This document shows positions 479 to 20,018 of a stretch of 64,000 nucleotides of DNA, piece by piece (the stretch's first letter is position 1; the number at the start of each line of letters is the position of its first letter). This stretch comes from Rhodocollybia butyracea. Its lineage: Eukaryota; Basidiomycota; Agaricomycetes; Agaricales; Omphalotaceae. The position numbers and the translations under genes were made by a program. A model generated the notes under the pieces. It was not told the DNA's origin. It did no database searches and saw nothing but the letters and a program-made list of their open reading frames with translations. Location: the NCBI GenBank assembly GCA_015501585.1, contig JADNRY010000024.1:1-64000 (forward strand). Direction: 5' to 3'.

Positions 479-2460
479 GTTCCGTCGTGTCGTCTATGTC
501 CTGGTAAAAAGAAACAAACCTTCACGACTAATGAGTTGCTTTAACCTTACAAAAGCTGTACCACTGGTGAAGAGTGCTCCTCCTACTCTTTTTTTTTTTT
601 TTTGCGGCACTGAAGAAAAGATATGGCATATCCGCATACTTGGGCCGGAATATGACTCGTCCATCTTTTGGAGCTGCCAGCCCTACTATGCTATACTGGA
701 AGATGCGTAGTTACTGCAGAAGCATGGCATGAGCGTTTACCATTAGATAAAATTTTCCCACATACAAAGAGGAGGGACTTATTTTAGATGCACAGAAATG
801 AGAACAAGTAAACTGATACAATCAATCATGAAACTGAATAAACCGAAGAAGAACATTTAACGGGATTGTACAAAGGTGATCCAGTCGCCTTCTAGACTAC
901 ATCCGAGCTTCTCAGCAAGGACGAGTTGCTCAGACATTGGCAAAGAGGCAAGGATTTGAACTAAAAGATGGCGGTGGCGGCAAAGTTGCTGGAGAGTTGG
1001 CGATTGGTCAGACGTTGGCAAAGAGGCAAGACGCGAAGTAAACAATGAATTATATGAGTACTGTTATAATGGCGAGATCCCAAGATATGAAGTATGATGC
1101 CCATATATAACAGAATACTCTGGCTACTCGCGATGAATCCAGATGTGAACTTTTGCAGGGATGCCAATTGCGCACCAGATATCGGTGTGGGAATGTACTT
1201 CAAGTTGTGTTGAGCCATTAATGATAAACATACAGGTAAATGAGAGGAGGGTAACTAGTGGGTAAAGGTATATTGTGCGCGAGCTTAGGAAGTGAACTAG
1301 ACGCTCAACTGGGCTCAACGGAATGGCTCTTTGCGTGTGGGAAAATTTTATCCAATGGTAAACGCCCATGTCACGCTTCTGCAGTAAGTCAAAAGCTTAT
1401 ACTGGAGGCGAACAATCATCGTTCCTGATCGGTATACTTTTCATCTATACCCAAATTCCTCAGTGACTTTGTGAGCGCTCAGGTCGACATGCAGAACTAC
1501 CCTGCTACTCGTCTAGCACACTACATCCCCCCAGTTATAGTTACGATCTAGTCAAAATCACCTTCCATGCTCAGTTGTATCAGTCTGCTCAGCTACTTTA
1601 CACCCACCATCCCTCTGGGGAAAGATGTTCAATCATGTCCCACAGAAACGCTGGACATCATGGAAAAACAGCCCTTATATGACCCTGTATGTATCATATG
1701 TATCTATTGTATAGCTGTTTAAAGGTCCCCCTGTACATATGGTACAGTATCGCTCTGTATAGCATTTATACCTTCACTAAGTGTACAGTATTGAACTGGA
1801 CATCTTTGTACACTGTATATACCCTCACTTCAAATACTGTGTGGGTACAGTAGCACTACATCTCAGTCTATCTCAGTCAGTACAAGTTAAGATTGTCCAG
1901 TTTCATCGTATTTACTCTGAATATGGGCTACTCAGGAATTCAAGGAAGATGAGCAAAAGGCATTCATTAACGTAGCCAATACAAGTAATTTTAAGTGACA
2001 AAAATGTAGTGAACAACAGTAATTTGTATTAATAAATACCCTGTATTGAGACCGTACTGAGTACTCCATACTGTCTCCAGCCCAAAAAATAATGACAACA
2101 ACAATAGCAAAGAGAGTCAAGAATCTATAGCAACGTCGTTAGAGAGAATAAAAGCTGTAGATGACAATGACAAGACATACCAGTGAAAGCAAATCCATCC
2201 TTGATCCTCCAGCTCTTGAAATGTTTTTAAAGAGCATCTTGGAGACAAAGCAACCAAAGCAATTTTGAGGAAGAGCTCAGAGACAGCATAGCGAGAGTGT
2301 GAGATCCTTGAAACATTGATGTCAAGGTGTTGAGACATTGAGGCAGAATGCAAGGTCAGTAAAACGTCAATGTTGAGGCATTGAGTCGCTGAGGCTAGCA
2401 GTGGAAAGTTGGGAAAAAGAACAATTCAACAAGAATAATATCGAAATATGTAATTCCACG
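479..2460. other. Non-coding stretch with small repeats
   Basis: I see no convincing gene here. It holds a 12-bp T run near 590-603 and a 22-bp direct repeat at 931-952 and 1009-1030 (CAGACrTTGGCAAAGAGGCA core, one mismatch). An AT-rich stretch at about 1680-1900 carries many GTACAG/TGTACA words. The bases around 717-760 resemble the 3' flank of the second GFA copy near 14383, which suggests that the GFA duplication included some downstream sequence. Confidence 0.5.
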
Positions 2461-2610
2461 ATAAGTTGCTAAGGCGGCTTATCTTAGGATAAGATAGGCC
2501 AAGGTGTGAGAGTCGGCATCCCGCCATTTAGGCACTTCCATCTTTTGCTTCCGACTCTCGTGTGCACGCGTTTTGGAAGCTTTATCCGCATATACAGACA
2601 TTTCTTGTCC
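2461..2610 (+). repeat. Split direct repeat A1
   Basis: The left terminal repeat of the retrotransposon begins ATAAGTTGCTAAGGCGGCTT and ends ACATTTCTTGTCC. It matches 10628-10775 with scattered substitutions and two single-base length differences. The Gag start codon at 2638 follows it closely. Confidence 0.85.
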
Positions 2611-3082
2611 TTCCTTGTCTTTTTCTTGTCCTTTATTATGGCTGACATTCCTATCAGGATCTGGAAACACTTTCATCCATATGATTCCTCTTTTGAATGG
2701 GCCGACAGACCACACTTCACGCATAAAGACAATGCAACAAGTGTTCGTATCAAGAAACTCTCAACCTTGCAGAGAATCAAACTTAATTTTAAAATTAATC
2801 AACAAAACAAGGGCCGTAGAGAATGTGCTTTTGATGGTGAAGAAAATGTCTCCAATGTAGAATCTCTAGCTGATATCAATGAAGAAGAGTACGATGCCAT
2901 CCAAAGTGATCCTACCACTTGTGAGGCTCATAAACAGTATTTTCTTTCCTCAACCATTCATGAAATGGTTCTTGCTAACCGCGAGGAAGCTGAGAAAGCT
3001 GCCCTTGCTCTTACTGGTGGTAACAGACTCTCTCCTCAGACAGATGTTGCCTCTGCAGGCACTATTGAACTGGAAGATGACA

Positions 3083-3090
3083 TCATGTTG
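3083..3090 (+). repeat. 8-bp target site duplication, left copy (TCATGTTG)
   Basis: TCATGTTG lies directly left of the composite element and is repeated exactly at 4899-4906 directly right of it. An 8-bp duplication is characteristic of the hAT superfamily. Confidence 0.9.
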
Positions 3091-3757
3091 TAGAGATGTC
3101 CACGAGTCCAAGTCTTCACAAGTACTTGCAGGTAAGATCCGTGGGAAAACCTGCAAGTATGTGACTCGCGGATCCCAGGATCCATTTCCCACGGGTCAGG
3201 CGCGGGTCACAAGTCAGACATTTGCAATTTTCGGTTGACTTGCAAGTACTTGTGTGACTTGTGCAAGCAATATGAACTCATATATTTGTTGTTGGTGATC
3301 AAAACTTACAGTAATTAATAGTATCATATTTATTATAGTACTTATCAAGTACTGCCACACATGTTTGAGGTTGTAGACAGCTCACAGCGACTGAGCGCTT
3401 ATTTTAGCGCCCAATCGCCGTAGGCTGTCTACAATCCAAAGCCTAACTGTCAGTACATTTTTACTTCATACCATAGTATGAAATTAGTGTAACAAGTAAA
3501 GTACAGGTTTTTAATAGCATTATACACTGTACAATCACTGTATGCAAGTAAATAATGGTAAATACTTGTGAATATAGCTGTAACTACTTGATTAGTGTGC
3601 GGATCCACAAGTACTTGTGAGACCCGCAAGTAATACTTGCGAGTCAGTGACCCGTTTCCCACGAGTCAGCCGCGGGTCACAAGTCAGGCCTTTTAGGCCA
3701 CAAGTACTTGCGCTCCAGATCCAAGTATACTTGGATCCGGACTCGTGGACATCTCTA
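3091..3757 (-). repeat. hAT-type MITE copy A (reverse orientation)
   Basis: A full-length 667-bp copy, the reverse complement of the MITE at 9343-10009. It is followed at 3758-3765 by CAGTCAAT, the reverse complement of the target duplication ATTGACTG that flanks the copy at 9343-10009. It was therefore copied together with its old insertion site in the recombinase gene. Confidence 0.9.
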
Positions 3758-4330
3758 CAGTCAATTCACCTATAAATCAGTGATGAGAGGTATGAGCAAA
3801 TAAGAAGAGATCATCAATACTTAGTCTGCGGCAGCCCCAGAAACAGATACAAGCAACAGCCCAAATAGTGCAATGAAAGGGGATATCAAAATCAAGTGAG
3901 AAGTATAATGCCAACATATGCTGGAGAGTGATGGGGTTTCTCATAGGACGACAATGATGAGCACCTGCTTTACTAGTACCAGTGTGAGCGAAACAAAGTT
4001 TCTGTGAATCAGCAGGCCAAGGAGCACCATGGAGCTCATGCCAAGCTCTAAGACCAGAAAGCCAATTCTTGGCAGACTTTTCCGAGACCTTGCCATATGA
4101 TAACCCATAAAACTGACTATGAGATCCTTGCTAGCAGGCATACAGAGCTCTTCAGAGATGTTCAACATGTCACAAAGCTGATTGAAATGTAAGAGCCCCA
4201 CTGCATAAGTGGATTTGGAGGCATCAACAAGAGCCACATGGGTTATCTTTTCACCGTATTTGATGACCTCTGGGGGAAGAGTGGAGGAGATGTGGGTGCG
4301 TTTTGCTTGGGAATAAGGAGTAGTCCAAGC
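3758..4330 (-). pseudogene. Captured fragment of the tyrosine-recombinase gene
   Basis: This is the reverse complement of 8769-9342, nearly identical. One base is missing (in the MGYHMGK region, read here as MGYHMAR), which shifts the frame. The fragment covers the core-binding domain, the 51-nt intron still unspliced, and the first 12 nt of the next exon, so it was copied as DNA rather than from a spliced transcript. It cannot encode a recombinase. Confidence 0.9.
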
Positions 4331-4898
4331 ACTTGTGGATCCGCACACTAATCAAGTAGTTACAGCTATATTCACAAGTATTTACCATTATTTACTTGCA
4401 TACAGTGATTGTACAGTGTATAATGCTATTAAAAACCTGTACTTTACTTGTTACACTAATTTCATACTATGGTATGAAGTAAAAATGTACTGACAGTTAG
4501 GCTTTGGATTGTAGACAGCCTACGGCGATTGGGCGCTAAAATAAGCGCTCAGTCGCTGTGAGCTGTCTACAACCTCAAACATGTGTGGCAGTACTTGATA
4601 AGTACTATAATAAATATGATACTATTAATTACTGTAAGTTTTGATCACCAACAACAAATATATGAGTTCCTATTGCTTGCACAAGTCACACAAGTACTTG
4701 CAAGTCAACCGAAAATTGCAAATGGCTGACTTGTGACCTGCGCCTGACCCGTGGGAAACGGATCCTGGGATCCGCGAGTCACATACTTGTGAGTTTTCCC
4801 ACAGATCTTACCTGCGAGTACTTGTGAAGACTTGGACTCGTGGGCATCTCTAGCTCCGGATCCAAGTATACTTGGATCCGGACTCATGGACATCTCTA
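4331..4898 (+). repeat. hAT-type MITE copy B, truncated, with rebuilt right end
   Basis: Bases 4331-4852 match 9488-10009 of MITE copy C; the first ~145 bases are absent. After the normal right end (...GCATCTCTA) an extra 46 bp (4853-4898) repeats, inverted, the left terminus of the same MITE family, including the AAGTATACTT palindrome. The outer border of the composite therefore uses this second terminus. Confidence 0.85.
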
Positions 4899-4906
4899 TC
4901 ATGTTG
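4899..4906 (+). repeat. 8-bp target site duplication, right copy (TCATGTTG)
   Basis: An exact repeat of 3083-3090, directly right of the composite element. After it, the interrupted Gag frame resumes at 4907. Confidence 0.9.
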
Positions 4907-5877
4907 GTCCCCAACAATCCTATTTCCCATACTGCTGTCTCTTTTCCCAATGAAATGCGCACAATAGCACACCAGAAACATATTTTCCTCTCCATCTTTT
5001 CCATACAAAAAATGTCAAGTTTATTAATGCCAATTTGCATAGATTCAAGTGCATAAAAATTGCGCATGATAAGAATAAGATCTCTATTCTTGATATTGAT
5101 CACATCTGCTCAATGATCTGAGTCAAGGATGCCAATGCAGGACCACATAGAGAGGATGACCTAGATTATAATGGTTGGCATAAATTCATGGCTAACCTCT
5201 ATGCTTTTGAGTGTAGCAGGTACAAGTCAGGTGCAGAGGCTGCTTGCCCTATGTTCCTCACCTCTCATGGGTCATTCTTTGATGAGCTTGAAGATGCTGA
5301 CATAACTTTTCCCTTCTGGTTTATCCATGAACAGAAGTTGCACCGCCTCCACTATGATTTGGATCTGGAGTTTAATGCTATTGCGTATATCCATACACAT
5401 ACAATAATTGAGGCAGCAATTAACACCCACAACCAGTTACTGACAGCACAAAAATTTAATGGTAACAGTAACAGTAACCATCAACAGGATTGACCTTCAG
5501 GTTCTAGTTCTTCAACGTCAAAACATCCTCACACATCTAAGGGTAATCCTTCCACCAACTCAAACGCGATCCCTGTAGCCCCTTCAAAGCCCTTTCAATC
5601 AGGCAACGAGAAGAAAGCCTCCCCTCCTCATTGCACAGGATGTGGTTGTTGGGGGCATGCCTTGGGCGACAACAGTGCAGACCATGGTCCGTTCCCGTTC
5701 ACCACCTACGCTGACAGAAAACTCAAATCCCCAACTGGGGTTGTCATATGCCTCATGTACAACATCTACGGTAACTGCTCCTGAGGTTGTTCTCCCGAGT
5801 CGCACATCTGTTCCCTATGCAGAGGCTCCCACTGGGCTCAAGAGTACAACACTGCCTGCCCTTGCACCACCAATTAA

Positions 5878-7381
5878 TCCTTTTCTTTGCCCAAAACTGT
5901 TGGAATTGAGGTATTCAACCATATTGTCACTCCATACAATGCTTCTAGCTTCTTCATCAAAATTTCTCACTATAATGTTTTGGACCATTACCCTCTTCTG
6001 GTCTGTTAATTGGCTTGGTTCATACTGATATGTGAAAGGTGCTAGAAAACAACCTAACAAATACAAGACCACACCTAACCAGACTATCAATTTATTTAAA
6101 GGGAGCAAGGCTGGGTTGTCAAAGATTCCCCAAAGAAAGTTAAGATATCAAATGTAAGATGATACACCATCCAGTGTAGTGAAACAACTGAACTAGCATA
6201 GTACAACAAGGTCTAGTAAGTTCTATGAACTGAACTAGCATAGACTATTGTCTAAGTTGTGTGCATATGTCTGACTGAAAACCCAAATAACCAAATAACT
6301 GTGTGTGTGTGTGTGTGTGTGTCCAATGATAACCAAAACCAAAACCAATACAACACAACTAGGACACTCCTGGGCAAACTCTGGCTCCAGCTAGCATAAT
6401 GCCATAACGTCCCTGACCAAACTCTGGGTCAAGCTACGAAACTGTGAGTGAACTTAATCACTAGGAACTTGTACCACAATCTTAGTGGCTTGCTAATACT
6501 CATTAGAGCTAGCTAAGGAACCCTCACTCTGGAGCCAAATAATTCTGTCATGCCCTAGGCATATACAGACTGCCAACGTTTCCTGCTTACAGTTACATAA
6601 CCCGCTCCCACTGCATTTCCGGTTCTGATACACTTCCGCTTTGCTTCTGTTTTACTTTTTCCTTCACTGTACACCTTCTATGATCCCGTCAATCCATTCT
6701 CCATCATTCTTACAATTATACATATGCTTTATGCTCATCCCGCCGCTTCCACTTATGTTCATTGCTGTCTTTCATCTCTTGTACTTCTTTTGGCTATTCT
6801 TGTCTTTTTCTACTCTCAGATTATTACCTATCACTACTCTGGTCCTTGAGTACCCTTTATATAGTTCCGTAGCATGTCAAGTATGGTAGATTGGAAATAT
6901 TGCTTGACCCCTTGACTCGTGTGCTCTTGTGTGTTCCAGTTTCTTGCTTTATCTGTTTCTTTAACTCTGTTTCTTCACTCCATTGTTTTCACAACCTCTG
7001 CAATTTACTATCATCTATTTGGTTCTGCTCTGTTTGCACTGCATCAGGTCAGCTACCGCTTGACCTTCCGCTTCCGCTCATATTGCTATCAAAGCCACTT
7101 GCACTTAGTGGGTCCTACCCTTCAAGTCGGAAACTCATCTACTCTTAGGCTTACTCGCCAAGTTCATTCTATTGCCTGTATGGACCTGCCATCCTTACAT
7201 TAGTCCCTTGGATGATCCTGACACAAGTCTTACATCCCATAGGCACTTTGGAACTGTTCTACACTCACATCCTTTCACATCTCCAACCAACTTTCCCAGT
7301 TTGGCTGAACAACGGCAGTACGGAGCGTATCCGCACTTTGGTTTCCAGGTTTGTAACCTGCGCTCGAAGGATTCTGCCTAG
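5878..7381. other. Internal retrotransposon region without a readable RT palm
   Basis: About 1.5 kb where the reverse transcriptase fingers and palm should lie. A short peptide at about 5890-6000 in the third frame (HIVTPYN, DHYPLL) resembles the linker that precedes the RT in this family. The rest is full of stops and rich in pyrimidines, and includes a GT microsatellite (6301-6322). It may be strongly decayed or partly replaced by unrelated sequence; I cannot tell which. Confidence 0.4.
6301..6322 (+). repeat. GT dinucleotide microsatellite
   Basis: Eleven GT units in a row at 6301-6322, within the unreadable part of the retrotransposon. Confidence 0.95.
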
Positions 7382-8379
7382 ATCCTTACAAGAGGAGTTT
7401 CACCTTTAGCAAAGATTGAGGATGACTGGGCTTTGTTCTGGACTCCCAATGCTACTGGTGTTTATGACTATGATTGCAAAGATGCTCTTGCGCATATCAA
7501 ACATTTAGGCACACCTTGGCATCCATCCAAGAAGAAAGGCGATCCATTTTTCATCTCCATCTTCACTTTTATTGGTCTTCCATGGGACATTCCCTGCCGC
7601 CATGTCAGTCTTCCCGAGGAGAAACAGCTAAAATATCTTTTCCGTCTCAAATCATTCTTGGGGTACCAACACTCATCCACTCGCAAAGCATGGAAAGTCC
7701 CACTCTATGAGGTTGAATCTATTCACGGCACCATTTGCTACATCACCTTCATCTATACTGAAGGCAATTCCCATCTTCTCGCTGTTTCAAATTTTTTGGT
7801 GTCGTTCAAAGGAAATGAGGTTATTTTTGGGAAATACCTCACCACCGCTGTCATTCGGGAAATCTCATGGTGGATTGACACTCTCCTTGATCTGAATTTC
7901 TTCAGACAACTCCGCCTTGTGGTCCTCTGGCAGACCATGGAATTTTTGTTGATGCCTTCACTGATTGGGGTATTGGCCTCTGGATCAATGGTGAATATGC
8001 CGCTTTACACCTGAAGCAAGGTTGGAAGATTGAGGGCCATGACATCTGTTGGTTGGAGACAGTTGCTATTGAGCTCACAGCTTATTACCTTGAAGCTTTG
8101 GGCTTCCGTGATTCTTTCATTCTCATATGGTCGGATAATAAAGGTACTATTGGTGCCATGAGGAAGGCCCGTAGTCCTAATCGCTGGATTAACCTTTCTG
8201 TTTGCTGCACTTTTGCAGTTCTATCTTCTCTTGCTATTGACCCCCATGTGGTCTATATCCAGTTTGCATCTAATCCAGCTGACCCACTTTTGCGTGGAAT
8301 CCTGGGCCCCCCGGAGAGGAAACTTGCTCCATTGTTTAAGCTCCCTGATGAGCTTCAAGATGCTATGTCTTATGTTTAG
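7382..8379 (+). pseudogene. End of reverse transcriptase plus RNase H (pol fragment)
   Basis: An open frame from 7382 reads RGVSPLAKIEDDWALFW, then GTPWHPSKKKGD, FTFIGLPWDIP and HVSLPEEKQLKYL, typical of the thumb/connection part of DIRS/Ngaro-type RTs. A frameshift near 7915 moves the reading to the next frame, which carries the RNase H domain. Its four catalytic acidic positions are visible: D in VDAFTDWG, E in ETVAIEL, D in SDNKGTIGA and D in NPADPLL. It ends at TAG 8377-8379. IEDDW may be the remnant of the YxDD box, but this is uncertain. It sits between Gag and recombinase as expected for the element. Confidence 0.75.
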
Positions 8380-9279
8380 GTATTCTATTGTCATTATTTG
8401 CTCATGCATAATTCTAACACTAATCTAGTACAATGTTCAATCGGGCACCACAAAGTTGTGGTGTGAGAGCCAGCATTCCATGCACGTTGTCCTCTCATAT
8501 ACCCAAGGTCCCTGCTCCCCATCCCAGCTCTAATAACTCTTTATTTTCCTTTCTTGGTCATCAGCCCTCTCCTGATAGGCCTCCACTTCCAAATATAATA
8601 TCCCCACTTTCCACTATTCCTGCCATCCAGCCTGCTCCTGCAATTCCACTTCCTTCTAATACACTGGCTCATCTACCCTCCCTCCCTGCCCCAAGATGTG
8701 CCAAGAAGGGTTGCAGCATTGCTAGCAATCCCTTACGCCCTAATGTCCAAGCAAAAGATTGTCTACATGCTTGGACTACTCCTTATTCCCAAGCAAAACG
8801 CACCCACATCTCCTCCACTCTTCCCCCAGAGGTCATCAAATACGGTGAAAAGATAACCCATGTGGCTCTTGTTGATGCCTCCAAATCCACTTATGCAGTG
8901 GGGCTCTTACATTTCAATCAGCTTTGTGACATGTTGAACATCTCTGAAGAGCTCTGTATGCCTGCTAGCAAGGATCTCATAGTCAGTTTTATGGGTTATC
9001 ATATGGGCAAGGTCTCGGAAAAGTCTGCCAAGAATTGGCTTTCTGGTCTTAGAGCTTGGCATGAGCTCCATGGTGCTCCTTGGCCTGCTGATTCACAGAA
9101 ACTTTGTTTCGCTCACACTGGTACTAGTAAAGCAGGTGCTCATCATTGTCGTCCTATGAGAAACCCCATCACTCTCCAGCATATGTTGGCATTATACTTC
9201 TCACTTGATTTTGATATCCCCTTTCATTGCACTATTTGGGCTGTTGCTTGTATCTGTTTCTGGGGCTGCCGCAGACTAA

Positions 9280-9330
9280 GTATTGATGATCTCTTCTTAT
9301 TTGCTCATACCTCTCATCACTGATTTATAG
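9280..9330 (+). other. Spliceosomal intron inside the recombinase gene
   Basis: GTATTGATGA...GATTTATAG, 51 nt. Its removal changes an ORF ending in TGA (9321-9323) into the conserved CRRLSELTVP sequence across the junction. The same intron is present, unspliced, in the captured antisense copy at 3770-3820. Confidence 0.75.
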
Positions 9331-9334
9331 GTGA

Positions 9335-9342
9335 ATTGACTG
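9335..9342 (+). repeat. 8-bp target site duplication, left copy (ATTGACTG)
   Basis: ATTGACTG directly left of the MITE, repeated exactly at 10010-10017. Removing one copy together with the MITE restores the recombinase reading frame (SELTVPTHS). Confidence 0.92.
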
Positions 9343-10009
9343 TAGAGATGTCCACGAGTCCGGATCCAAGTATACTTGGATCTGGAGCGCAAGTACTTGT
9401 GGCCTAAAAGGCCTGACTTGTGACCCGCGGCTGACTCGTGGGAAACGGGTCACTGACTCGCAAGTATTACTTGCGGGTCTCACAAGTACTTGTGGATCCG
9501 CACACTAATCAAGTAGTTACAGCTATATTCACAAGTATTTACCATTATTTACTTGCATACAGTGATTGTACAGTGTATAATGCTATTAAAAACCTGTACT
9601 TTACTTGTTACACTAATTTCATACTATGGTATGAAGTAAAAATGTACTGACAGTTAGGCTTTGGATTGTAGACAGCCTACGGCGATTGGGCGCTAAAATA
9701 AGCGCTCAGTCGCTGTGAGCTGTCTACAACCTCAAACATGTGTGGCAGTACTTGATAAGTACTATAATAAATATGATACTATTAATTACTGTAAGTTTTG
9801 ATTACCAACAACAAATATATGAGTTCATATTGCTTGCACAAGTCACACAAGTACTTGCAAGTCAACCGAAAATTGCAAATGTCTGACTTATGACCCGCGC
9901 CTGACCCATGGGAAACGGATCCTGGGATCCGCGAGTCACATACTTGCGGGTTTTCCCACAGATCTTACCTGCAAGTACTTGTGAAGACTTGGACTTGTGG
10001 ACATCTCTA
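9343..10009 (+). mobile_element. hAT-type MITE, copy C
   Basis: A 667-bp non-autonomous element with terminal inverted repeats TAGAGATGTCCACGAGTCC and (reversed) the same with one change, flanked by ATTGACTG on both sides. The 8-bp duplication and the TAG start indicate hAT. Subterminal regions carry the palindrome GATCCAAGTATACTTGGATC (9363-9382) and several copies of CAAGTACTTG, plausible transposase-binding sites. A long imperfect hairpin lies in the middle (about 9666-9728, TTGTAGACAGC against GCTGTCTACAA). The ORF at 9438-9650 lies wholly within the element and has no recognisable domain. Confidence 0.9.
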
Positions 10010-10017
10010 ATTGACTG
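10010..10017 (+). repeat. 8-bp target site duplication, right copy (ATTGACTG)
   Basis: An exact repeat of 9335-9342, immediately right of MITE copy C. Confidence 0.92.
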
Positions 10018-10289
10018 TTCCTACGCATTCCGGTTTCAAGCCAAGGTTCCATGTGGCTCACAACACATCACCGTCCTTTTCCTTCCATTCTGATAGAACA
10101 CCAAAGGCTCTCTTGTTCCATATCCCTTGGACCAAAACCACAAAGGAATTAGGTGCCACTGTCACTGGTACTGCACAAACCGCCGCTCTTCAGTCAATAT
10201 GTCCTTTTGCTGCCATGCAACTCCATCTCCAGGCTAATTCCAGGATTCCCGCCAATTTCTCTCTTTTTGGTTATATTGATAGACTCTGA

Positions 10290-10543
10290 CCAGGTTATGC
10301 GGTTAAAGTCTATTTTGGACGATTTTTGTATCACTAATAAAATCCCTGACTCTGTAATTGAAACATGTATTAATGGTATTGATATTGAAGACTTCAAATA
10401 GTTTATAATAATATGACTGTATTTTCTTGATGGTATGTTTTCTTTGCCCTTGCTCTTACTGAGGTTGCCTGCCTGTTTGCCAAGCTTATCGGAGCTCTGG
10501 CTCTGTTTGAGACAGAGCTCTCAACGTCCTGGGCGGGAACACA
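10290..10543. other. 3' internal part of the retrotransposon
   Basis: Sequence between the recombinase stop and repeat B1. A frame shifted relative to the recombinase stays open to about 10401 but shows no conserved recombinase motif. A palindrome, GAGCTCTG...CAGAGCTC, lies at about 10493-10520. Confidence 0.5.
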
Positions 10544-10624
10544 GGGCCAAGCCCTAGGCAAACCACAGTCTATATTGTATCCCTTATTATACTTTATCCC
10601 TTATCCCTCACTCTATCTTATTCT
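10544..10624 (+). repeat. Split direct repeat B1
   Basis: Begins GGGCCAAGCCCTAGGCAAAC and runs to CACTCTATCTTAT; it matches B2 at 10964-11057 except for a short length difference. It is followed almost directly by A2. Confidence 0.85.
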
Positions 10625-10627
10625 GCA

Positions 10628-10775
10628 ATAAGTTGCTAAGGCAGCTTATCTTAGGATAAGATAGGCCAAGGTGTGAGAGTCGGCATCCCGCCATTTAGGC
10701 GCTTACATCTTTTGATTCCGACTCTTGCACATGTGTTTTGGAAGCTTTATCTGCATATACAGACATTTCTTGTCC
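10628..10775 (+). repeat. Split direct repeat A2
   Basis: A second copy of A1 (2461-2610), starting ATAAGTTGCTAAGGCAGCTT and ending TTCTTGTCC. Confidence 0.85.
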
Positions 10776-10963
10776 CCCACCCACCCTCCCTGGACTCAAT
10801 ATGTCTTATTTGCATAACTTGAATGCTCCCACCTGCTATTCTTCCTACATGTCCAACTCTTTCTTCATTCCATTTCATTTTTAGTGTTCTCACAATGTTC
10901 CAGCTTGGCTCATCCACGTTTGGAGGTGTTTATTTTATTCCTCTTCCACCTCGCACCCACGTG

Positions 10964-11057
10964 GGGCCAAGCCCCAGGCAAACCACAGTCTATATTGTAT
11001 CCCTTATTATACTTTATCCCTTATCTTATATGTATCTACAGCCTCACTCTATCTTAT
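10964..11057 (+). repeat. Split direct repeat B2, right end of the retrotransposon
   Basis: A second copy of B1, from GGGCCAAGCCCCAGGCAAAC to CTCACTCTATCTTAT. It marks the right border of the element. Confidence 0.85.
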
Positions 11058-17264: not shown

Positions 17265-18529
17265 GGGTCTATTGCCCCAAATTCAACACCATTGTCTGTT
17301 GGTTTTTCCTTCCTATCATCAAACCCCAAATCAATTAATTTTTACAGCGTCTTCTTCTTGCGTAGGCTTGCCGCAGCTCGCGTCTTGCCTAGGGGAGACA
17401 AGCGTCTTCTCGATCCTCTCTGTATACTTCGCGTTGGACGGTGCTGCGCTATTGAACTGTACATGTACTCGTTTTGTGCTACGCTTCGGCGTTCTTATTT
17501 CTTCCGTGACATGATCTTAGTACTTACATGCTGTTTCCTGAATCACCTAATTCTTATTCTCGTGCCTACTACTTGCGCACCACGCGGTGACCATTGTATT
17601 CTAGTTCTGGCTACTCACCTTCGCCTTTTCCATCGTGCACCGCGATCGACAAGGTTGATATAGGTTGACATCTTCCAGAGACTTCTGTATTATGTATGGC
17701 TGCTGCGTCTTTTTTGCTACCCTTTTTTTTACCTTCTCCCCTGCCATCTTCCAAGAACAATAATTCTTTATTTACGAAATTGCGATCTATCCCTAAGTAA
17801 TTACAGCCGAAGATGACTATATTGCGAGGCGAGTCGGCCACTTTCTAGTATTGACTGTCCATCAGAATAATAAGCACTCTAGTATTCGAATATACTGTAG
17901 GGTGGACATTCCTAAAGGGTTGATCTCCGTGCGTTCTGTCCTAGTCATGTTAGAGAGAAGCAAGGGATTGCAATAGCGCGATGTAAACGCTGCCCTGAAC
18001 CGAGAAAATAATGTCGCGCAGCCAAGGTAGTAGGTACACTCATCGATAAGATATTACTTGCCGTGTTTATTAATCACCACTCACTCGAGAACTATCCAGA
18101 GTCCAGCTGCAGATACATATGGAGAAAGTATAAAACATCGGGAACTCAAAGGAGTTGCTCGGATTTGATTTCATATTCTCCTAAGTTAGTCCCCTCTGGG
18201 GATCCGGATCAAAGAAATACATCGAAGTTGGGCGTTGATGGGCCGGGGCTCAACGGTAAACTGTGCTTGATATTGATCTTCAAAACCACGAAGAGAGAGT
18301 GGTTTGTCACTGGTCGACAACCCTAGCGCGTGTATCCATGGATCATGTCAGGATCATGTGTACTAGCATAATCTGGATGAGTTGAGAGCATGGAAAAAGT
18401 AAACATGAAAGTGTCAAGTAGGAGACTCTGACAGTGCCACTAGAAAAAAGGTCACCAGAGTTCCAGAAGGCAAGGTAGACGATACGAGCATTGAGTCGAT
18501 AGAGTCAAGTGTATGTATCTATTTTGCAT
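17265..18529. other. Non-coding stretch upstream of tRNA-Phe
   Basis: ORFs in 17206-17663 overlap in several frames and have no domain; they are more likely the 3' UTR of the small gene plus spacer. Nothing else is supported. Confidence 0.45.
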
Positions 18530-18614
18530 GGGGGTATAGCTCAGCTGGGAGAGCAGCAGACTGAAGTGCTTGGCAATATTTCTGAAGGTCCCGCGTTCGA
18601 TCCGCGGTACCCCC
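18530..18614 (+). tRNA. tRNA-Phe (GAA) with intron
   Basis: The acceptor stem GGGGGTA pairs with TACCCCC. The D-arm is GCTCAGCTGGGAGAGC and the T-arm CCGCGTTCGATCCGCGG. The anticodon loop CTGAAG carries GAA and is followed by a ~13-nt intron at the canonical position after base 37. The anticodon stem GCAGA/TCTGA has one mismatched pair at its base. A short T run (near 18625) could end Pol III transcription. The layout matches eukaryotic nuclear tRNA-Phe. Confidence 0.93.
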
Positions 18615-18615
18615 A

Positions 18616-20018
18616 ATATTTATCTTTTCACCAGTGTTTTTCAAACGCACTTGAGCTCGCCAGTGCTACTTTTTTCTGCTTGTCATCGCTCAGAGCAATA
18701 ACCCCTAGTAGCCCCCTAACCCCCTATAGATCAAGTTTCGATCCTTCCAACTCTTACATGATGTGTCTGTATACATGGCCTCTGCTCCACTGTGAATACT
18801 GAAGTACTGAAGCACGGTGGACAAGGTTCCGCTCTTGAGATGATTGACAACTGATCCATCGGGAGACAAATATGATATCCTGAGAGCGTACATAAGATGC
18901 GAAAAAAAGGCTAGGCTTGATTGATGGGAGGAGTGGCCGGACCGTCGGATTGCAGGAAGTACACGGCAGAGAAGATGAATTAGTTCATCTTGGTCAACCG
19001 TTCACAGAGGAGGTCCTCCTCACTGCCGTCCCAGCCGACATCAGCATACTACCGTATCTGCCAGAAAATTAATCACAGGTGATAGGGATTGACGACAAGG
19101 CATCATCAAGGCGGGAGAGAAATTGGTTTGTTTCGTTTTAGGAGTTCTGAATGTACATCGTCTCTGAGGGTGTACTTTCTGCTATCTAGTAGACCACCAA
19201 GCTAGAGTCATGGTCTTGGCCCCGGAGAGAGCAAGAAGGTAACATAGTACTAATGTGTGATCAGCTCGAATCAAAGGATTAAGTATGTGAATTTGGCGGA
19301 TACATAGTGCTTGATGCCTGATGATGAGCGTCTTGTTCTTGCAAGTAACAGGCACGCCATCCATTTAGCCATCCTTTCAATGCATCCAAAGATGTTGAGG
19401 ATGATTGTAATTGCGAGTACTCCGTTGTTAGGCTTTCCAGCCCAAGAGGTATTTATGTAGAGGAATTTATGCGGTGAGTGAGCTTGAGTGAGGTTCTTGG
19501 CTAACGCTGTGCCGGGAGGCTCCCGGCGGCATCAAGCGCTAAGCGGCCGGCTATCAAATTGCTTAGATGACGCTTTCTCAGGTAAAACCCGGAAAAGCAC
19601 TCGAGTTTCGAAACAATTTCGAAAGCAGCTTGCCCGACAAGTCTGCTCAAACAACGAGAATATATGGCGGAACTAACGCTTATGGGGATTTATGTGCACA
19701 TTCAAGTACTTGCACTATCGCGTCAGCAGTGCCTTCGGTGAGACTTTGACTGTTCCATCACTGATCCGCTCCAGTTCTTCACCATCTATACAGTTTCAAC
19801 TGGGATACCCGCAGTATTTAAAGTAGCGGCCAGAGCACCTCCTTTTCGGCTCTCACAGCTCCCCACAGCATACTTATAAGTCGCATCGGACGCCTCCTTT
19901 AGGGCTGCCGCTTTCATTAGCTTATAAAGCTACCTGGCGCCTGCTTCATCTTCTTGAGACTGCTGGGCAGTTCTCCATCGTTTAGTTTTTGTTCGTTCTA
20001 TTATCATTTGCGGGCGCA
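18616..20018. other. Non-coding stretch between tRNA-Phe and the Ser/Pro-rich gene
   Basis: No gene, tRNA or clear repeat was recognised. A CT-rich segment with TATTTAAAG near 19812 lies about 200 bp before the start of the next gene and may belong to its promoter. Confidence 0.45.

Follow-up and report, generated by a model that had tools for sequence, protein, structure and literature searches.

The 1,808-bp composite unit at positions 3091-4898 of the Rhodocollybia butyracea DNA analysed here probably arose in place, through the repair of a broken MITE residing in a Gag gene, and was not carried in as a finished element, a reading to which we assign a rough probability of 0.72. The stretch analysed, hereafter the window, comprises 64,000 nucleotides (C539:1-64000) of a genome assembly of 95.6 Mb in 1,381 contigs. 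The anatomy of the unit, both target duplications, an empty site, the donor and a change from non-donor to donor sequence within the left MITE are legible in the DNA itself.

The composite unit, its host and the MITE family

The retroelement that contains both the composite unit and the donor MITE (2447-11025) appears to be Ngaro-like, judging from its repeats. These are arranged in the order A-pol-B-A-B, which is the definition of Ngaro in the available text of PMC3783388, with identities of 103/112 positions between A1 and A2 and of 61/62 between B1 and B2. Its first ORF is labelled Gag because of its position and its match to the first ORF of a relative (28% identity, 151 aa). When reverse transcriptase and RNase H were sought, neither the two pol-region pieces of the window nor one piece from a relative had a Pfam match. 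The pol-region frames of this retroelement appear broken.

The recombinase gene has homologs in Gymnopus, Lentinula and other agarics, one of them named as a DNA breaking-rejoining enzyme. The donor MITE interrupts it downstream of its first part, the second part being matched at 9987-10325. The recombinase piece of the window had no Pfam match. Two full-length relatives matched Phage_integrase with scores of 24.0 and 26.0 bits, both below the cut-off of 27.1, whereas a third had no such match. At the protein level, distant relatives of the recombinase are present in the genome (117 matches), and protein P0002 of Gymnopus androsaceus JB14 had a best match of 65% in the genome, with short pieces reaching 77% at most. 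The features concerned are listed below, with the strand where one is assigned.

2447-11025, + strand: host retroelement with Ngaro-type A-pol-B-A-B repeats, from the A1/A2 and B1/B2 identities and the repeat order
2447-2558: A1 repeat of the host retroelement
3083-3090: left target duplication of the composite unit, TCATGTTG, identical to 4899-4906
3091-3757, - strand: left MITE, full length (667 bp), chimeric, non-donor-like from 3091 to at least 3297
3758-3765, - strand: CAGTCAAT, copied target duplication of the donor MITE, reverse complement of 9335-9342 (ATTGACTG)
3758-4331, - strand: captured recombinase piece, antisense, running from 9342 back to 8768
4326-4331: junction microhomology, CAAGCA in the recombinase piece and CAAGTA in the MITE
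about 4331-4852, + strand: second MITE, cut on its inner side with about 140 bp lost, outer terminus complete
4853-4898, - strand: 46-bp MITE terminus, oriented like the left MITE
4899-4906: right target duplication of the composite unit, TCATGTTG
8433-9323, + strand: recombinase gene, first part, from which the captured piece derives, with homologs in Gymnopus and Lentinula
9335-9342: left target duplication of the donor MITE, ATTGACTG
9343-10009, + strand: donor MITE, in the recombinase gene
10010-10017: right target duplication of the donor MITE, ATTGACTG
10544-10605: B1 repeat of the host retroelement
10614-10725: A2 repeat of the host retroelement
10964-11025: B2 repeat of the host retroelement

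Much of what the sequence-only reading had described is borne out by this anatomy. The unit is bounded on both sides by the same octamer, and its two inverted MITE segments surround an antisense part of the recombinase gene. This captured piece of 574 bp is the reverse complement of the gene from 9342 back (8768/8769-9342), with 0 substitutions and one 1-bp deletion. The inner junction also retains the target duplication of the donor MITE, as had been noticed. The picture of two MITEs enclosing the cargo was right as to the presence of both and overlooked the extra 46-bp terminus and the chimerism of the left MITE. The outer edge of the second MITE (4852) is the exact family terminus, and the 46-bp terminus that follows starts with GCTCCGGA, presumably the surviving target duplication of a nested second MITE. 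The outer termini of the whole unit are intact, the right one with one change. Among the 12 left/right pairings of flanking octamers, identity was found only for 3091/4898 (TCATGTTG) and 9343/10009 (ATTGACTG), the remaining 10 differing at 5 to 8 of the 8 positions.

The copies of this MITE family are about 667 bp long and have in common short terminal inverted repeats, TAGAGATGTCCACGAGTCC, a terminus matched 889 times in the genome (441 forward and 448 reverse, with at most 2 mismatches). In 28 fetched loci, the 8-bp duplication was perfect in 21, carried one or two mismatches in 4 and was absent from 3. Since a duplication of this length is usual, the family behaves as hAT elements do, in agreement with the hAT-type character first attributed to the unit, and duplication and inverted repeats together argue for a non-autonomous family of the hAT superfamily. 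At L003, L027 and L028, the 8-bp flanks differ by 4-6 mismatches, and these loci are possibly products of MITE-MITE recombination. The flanking octamer GTGAGCGG or its complement is common to four MITE loci (L010, L014, L075 and L079), which may reflect a larger repeat or duplicate contigs carrying the MITE.

The hAT dimerisation domain was matched 46 times in the genome. In the search for an autonomous partner, 10 hAT loci were examined, and none had a transposase region with the family termini as its own. At L047 (C702:17663-17830 and 18413-19078), a hAT dimerisation domain is followed about 580 bp downstream by a complete MITE of the family, and the transposase there showed no sign of the same termini. 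Two other MITEs carry inserts, one of 989 bp (L053 in C246, 1686-2674) between TA and TA and one of 181 bp (L055 in C235, 647-827) bearing inverted ends. They were considered as further gene-capture composites and rejected, as from the inserts' own sequence they look like nests of other transposon kinds.

Insertion site, copy number and origin of the alleles

A paralogous element in the same genome, in C735, is the only close relative found for the Gag region, and it presents an empty site (L038 from 3456), GATGACATCACGTTGGTCCCC, with a single octamer, TCACGTTG, that differs from TCATGTTG by one substitution. The flanks of this site are 93% (632 bp) and 90% (1,011 bp) identical to the Gag region. 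The flanking octamers and this empty site together indicate that the unit occupies a genuine hAT-type insertion site, and the insertion into the Gag region proposed from the sequence is thus upheld. The C735 element has a simple MITE of its own elsewhere (L038 6439 to L039 595), with CAAAACAG on both sides.

A DNA search of the genome with 8500-9342 gave five matches, all of which were scored (5/5): the donor, the composite unit and three at 67-68%. Captured DNA above 68% identity was therefore found nowhere else in the genome, and the junction 4852/4853 had no second occurrence in it with up to 3 mismatches allowed. As the captured DNA occurs only at the donor and in the unit, which are 4.4 kb apart in the same retroelement, the chimera is single-copy within the assembly. 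The claim that the composite had moved as one piece is not sustained by these searches, which returned none of the further copies expected of it, nor the several copies with differing target duplications that would mark a mobile element.

The origin of the MITE segments was traced with a panel of 45 copies besides the left MITE and the donor, namely L003-L030 (28 copies), the copy in C735 and 16 loci taken from a further 25. The further loci were included when more than 640 bp aligned at more than 90% identity, and nine (L053, L054, L055, L057, L064, L066, L071, L072 and L074) were dropped. This panel is biased to copies resembling the unit, L003-L030 being the top matches to it among the 40 that were scored from 563 candidates, and nine fetched loci having been picked for carrying the 591A word. 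The allele 591A, which the left MITE shares with the donor, had itself been considered as private to the donor, an idea that was dropped when it was found at 12 places in the genome.

The left MITE differs from the donor MITE by 7 substitutions, all within positions 1-207, and is followed by 0 substitutions over the remaining 460 bp of MITE (208-667) and the 574 bp of recombinase. In positions 1-207, 37 of the 45 panel copies resemble the left MITE more closely than the donor does, while in positions 208-667 the donor is the nearest of 46 copies. The switch point lies between 3297 and 3681, and from there to 3757 the left MITE equals the donor exactly. Neither the left MITE nor any panel copy carries the donor alleles 102T, 120T or 207A. 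The 207A word has one exact match in the genome, the other rows listed among 142 matches (at most 1 mismatch) reading G.

The 46-bp end carries 627G and 655A, unlike both the donor and the left MITE. A minority allele of the donor, 627A (2 of 45 panel copies), is in the left MITE and missing from this end. This 46-bp end differs from the donor at 2 positions and matches 3 of the 45 panel copies exactly, and 34 of the 45 are nearer to it than the donor. Thus, by their alleles, the outer ends of the composite look non-donor and its interior looks copied from the donor, although the two outer ends may stem from different MITEs. The second MITE differs over 522 bp at 11 positions from the donor, at 10 from the left MITE and at 8 from the nearest panel copy, and its alleles 9C, 128C and 183G occur in 0 of 29 panel copies. 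Judged by these differences, it is a copy of neither the donor nor the left MITE.

The chance that all 7 differences fall in the first 207 of 1,241 bp is 3.6e-6 under an even spread, 9.7e-5 with a rough CpG weighting and 0.0026 when weighted by the distribution within the family's own MITEs. Indeed, 43% of the pairwise differences of the family fall in 1-207, so the clustering is partly a family property. Among the 544 panel pairs that differ at 6 or more sites in 1-207, only 2 show no difference in 208-667. These are the left MITE with the donor, and L076 (C257) with L079 (C279); the latter two have differing flanks, are identical in 208-667 and differ at 7 sites in 1-207, possibly by gene conversion. 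Taken alone, the clustering of 7 and 0 would be good but not overwhelming evidence that the left MITE is chimeric.

Proposed repair in place and alternative explanations

We infer a nested pre-state, a break and a repair pathway, which could have unfolded as follows. A MITE would have entered Gag, duplicating TCATGTTG, and a second one in the opposite orientation, which duplicated GCTCCGGA, would have entered the first at 46 bp from the right end. A break would then have arisen close to the left edge of the nested MITE, and the broken end on the left would have invaded the inverted MITE that interrupts the recombinase gene, about 5 kb off. Synthesis would have copied the donor MITE, then its target duplication and lastly 574 bp of the recombinase gene. 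The new strand would then have come free and, at the CAAG(C/T)A microhomology, have been joined to what was left of the second MITE, which lacks about 140 bp. In this course of events the composite need not have moved at any point.

The nesting is suggested by the second MITE, which ends exactly at its terminus and is followed there by GCTCCGGA. It is given here as a probable state rather than an observed one because a single GCTCCGGA remains, the other copy of the octamer being gone, as resection predicts. No copy of the pre-capture state, with a simple or a nested MITE at the Gag site, was found, the relative in C735 being empty. Repair in place is favoured because it explains with fewer steps the single copy, the nearness of the donor and the association of non-donor ends with a donor interior. 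From the order of events read earlier, the direction of copying can be kept, the donor duplication having been carried along, but not the chimera that gains a terminus and then transposes.

That chimera, built elsewhere with two termini and then transposed into Gag as one 1,808-bp piece, is in our view an unlikely origin for the unit. It would be in keeping with the intact outer termini (the right one with its one change) and the perfect 8-bp duplication round the whole unit, and local hopping of hAT elements, as discussed for maize Pack-hATs in the available part of PMC8903248, could explain why the donor is so near. Nevertheless, neither a second copy nor any further trace of the captured DNA was found, and the chimera would have had to form elsewhere, jump to within 4.4 kb of its donor and lose its first site. 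Moreover, repair would be required in any case to place a donor interior between non-donor ends.

Still less probable, we consider, is that replication switching took the place of break repair. The inverted MITE pair about 5 kb apart, the inverted copy of the donor and the microhomology at the exit all agree with such switching. However, its product would be the same as that of break repair, and nothing in the DNA tells the two apart.

An assembly artefact, with reads of several MITE copies misjoined round the inverted repeat, appears very improbable, even though near-identical inverted repeats and 889 terminus matches are hard for assemblers. The window contains no N bases, and a perfect duplication with a matching empty site is not expected from a collapsed assembly. 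The 1-bp deletion in the copied piece and the second-MITE alleles seen in none of the 29 panel copies also speak against it. Finally, a macrotransposon, in which the second MITE once stood at 8768 and both MITEs moved jointly, was rejected, as the donor gene shows no interruption at 8768 and has kept its MITE, and the truncation of the second MITE falls exactly at the 8768 junction.

Relation to known gene capture

With two outer termini and an 8-bp duplication around a gene piece copied from another place, the unit is built like Pack-TYPE and Pack-TIR elements, and it would be a newborn single-copy Pack-hAT if it was made by repair in place. In animals, single-copy Pack-TIRs have been attributed to transposition-independent gap filling (Tan et al., PMC8277862). 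According to the available part of that study, 160/281 (56.9%) have their parent within 15 kb, mostly at less than 5 kb, and microhomology with a median of 2 bp occurs at one or more breakpoints in 190/281. There, hAT is the commonest superfamily (208/370), and the filler-free element was present in outgroups in 91/97 primate cases.

Like those elements, so far as that text describes them, the composite is a single-copy hAT unit with intact termini and target duplication, a donor in cis at 4.4 kb and a breakpoint microhomology (CAAG(C/T)A, 4326-4331). It differs from them in being fungal, in having a retrotransposon gene as cargo and in a recipient that looks nested. The donor would also have been entered via long MITE-to-MITE homology, hence the copying in of the donor's target duplication. 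The composite thus fits the class of gap-filled single-copy Pack-TIRs, the comparison here being with the paralogous C735 site rather than an orthologous one.

For fungi, a precedent of hAT gene capture is in print, namely a hAT element with histone H3 in Dothideomycetes (PMC6710886). As far as the accessible text goes, both cases combine, in a fungal genome, a hAT element flanked by 8-bp duplications with a gene that it captured. In contrast to the single copy seen here, that element has hundreds of copies, and its cargo is intron-less, from a transcript or retrocopy, whereas the cargo of the composite is genomic DNA of a neighbouring gene. The plant Pack-TYPE transposons, including Pack-hAT, covered in the available part of PMC8903248 are likewise non-autonomous, with termini and a target duplication round captured coding DNA. 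Their acquisition is proposed there to proceed via neighbouring insertions and re-mobilisation, while the composite is without sign of mobilisation.

At rice transposon excision sites, filler DNA is reported to arise by synthesis-dependent strand annealing (PMC4423477, available part), and there too foreign DNA was copied in while a break at a DNA transposon was repaired. Those fillers measure 1-123 bp and the element is gone, in contrast with the 574 bp of gene DNA and part of a MITE copied here and the element still present. In the open-licence literature, at the level of titles and abstract openings, we found no report of a fungal Pack-TIR arising in place. What would be new is a fungal in-place case, with MITE-to-MITE entry that copies the donor duplication, an apparently nested recipient and a retrotransposon cargo.

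How DNA transposons first gain gene pieces is still debated, and in the composite the event is legible nearly base by base, from the departure of copying through the donor duplication and the cargo to the microhomology that closed the gap. We put forward tentatively, as a possible though doubtful generalisation, that capture starts from homology where one MITE is present in hundreds of copies, a broken MITE copy invading a gene-resident copy and reading through, with the copies acting as entry ramps into genes. If this were true, Pack-hATs would originate in place, the target duplication of the donor marking each of them like a stamp, and inverted MITE pairs inside one retroelement would be hot spots. 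Such a stamp would be searchable in any MITE-rich genome, the rule being to look for a donor target duplication beside a MITE terminus, within a larger unit bearing a different duplication. Should repair in place be the true origin of the composite, it would favour repair-based capture before any transposition and would extend the result obtained in animals to a fungus.
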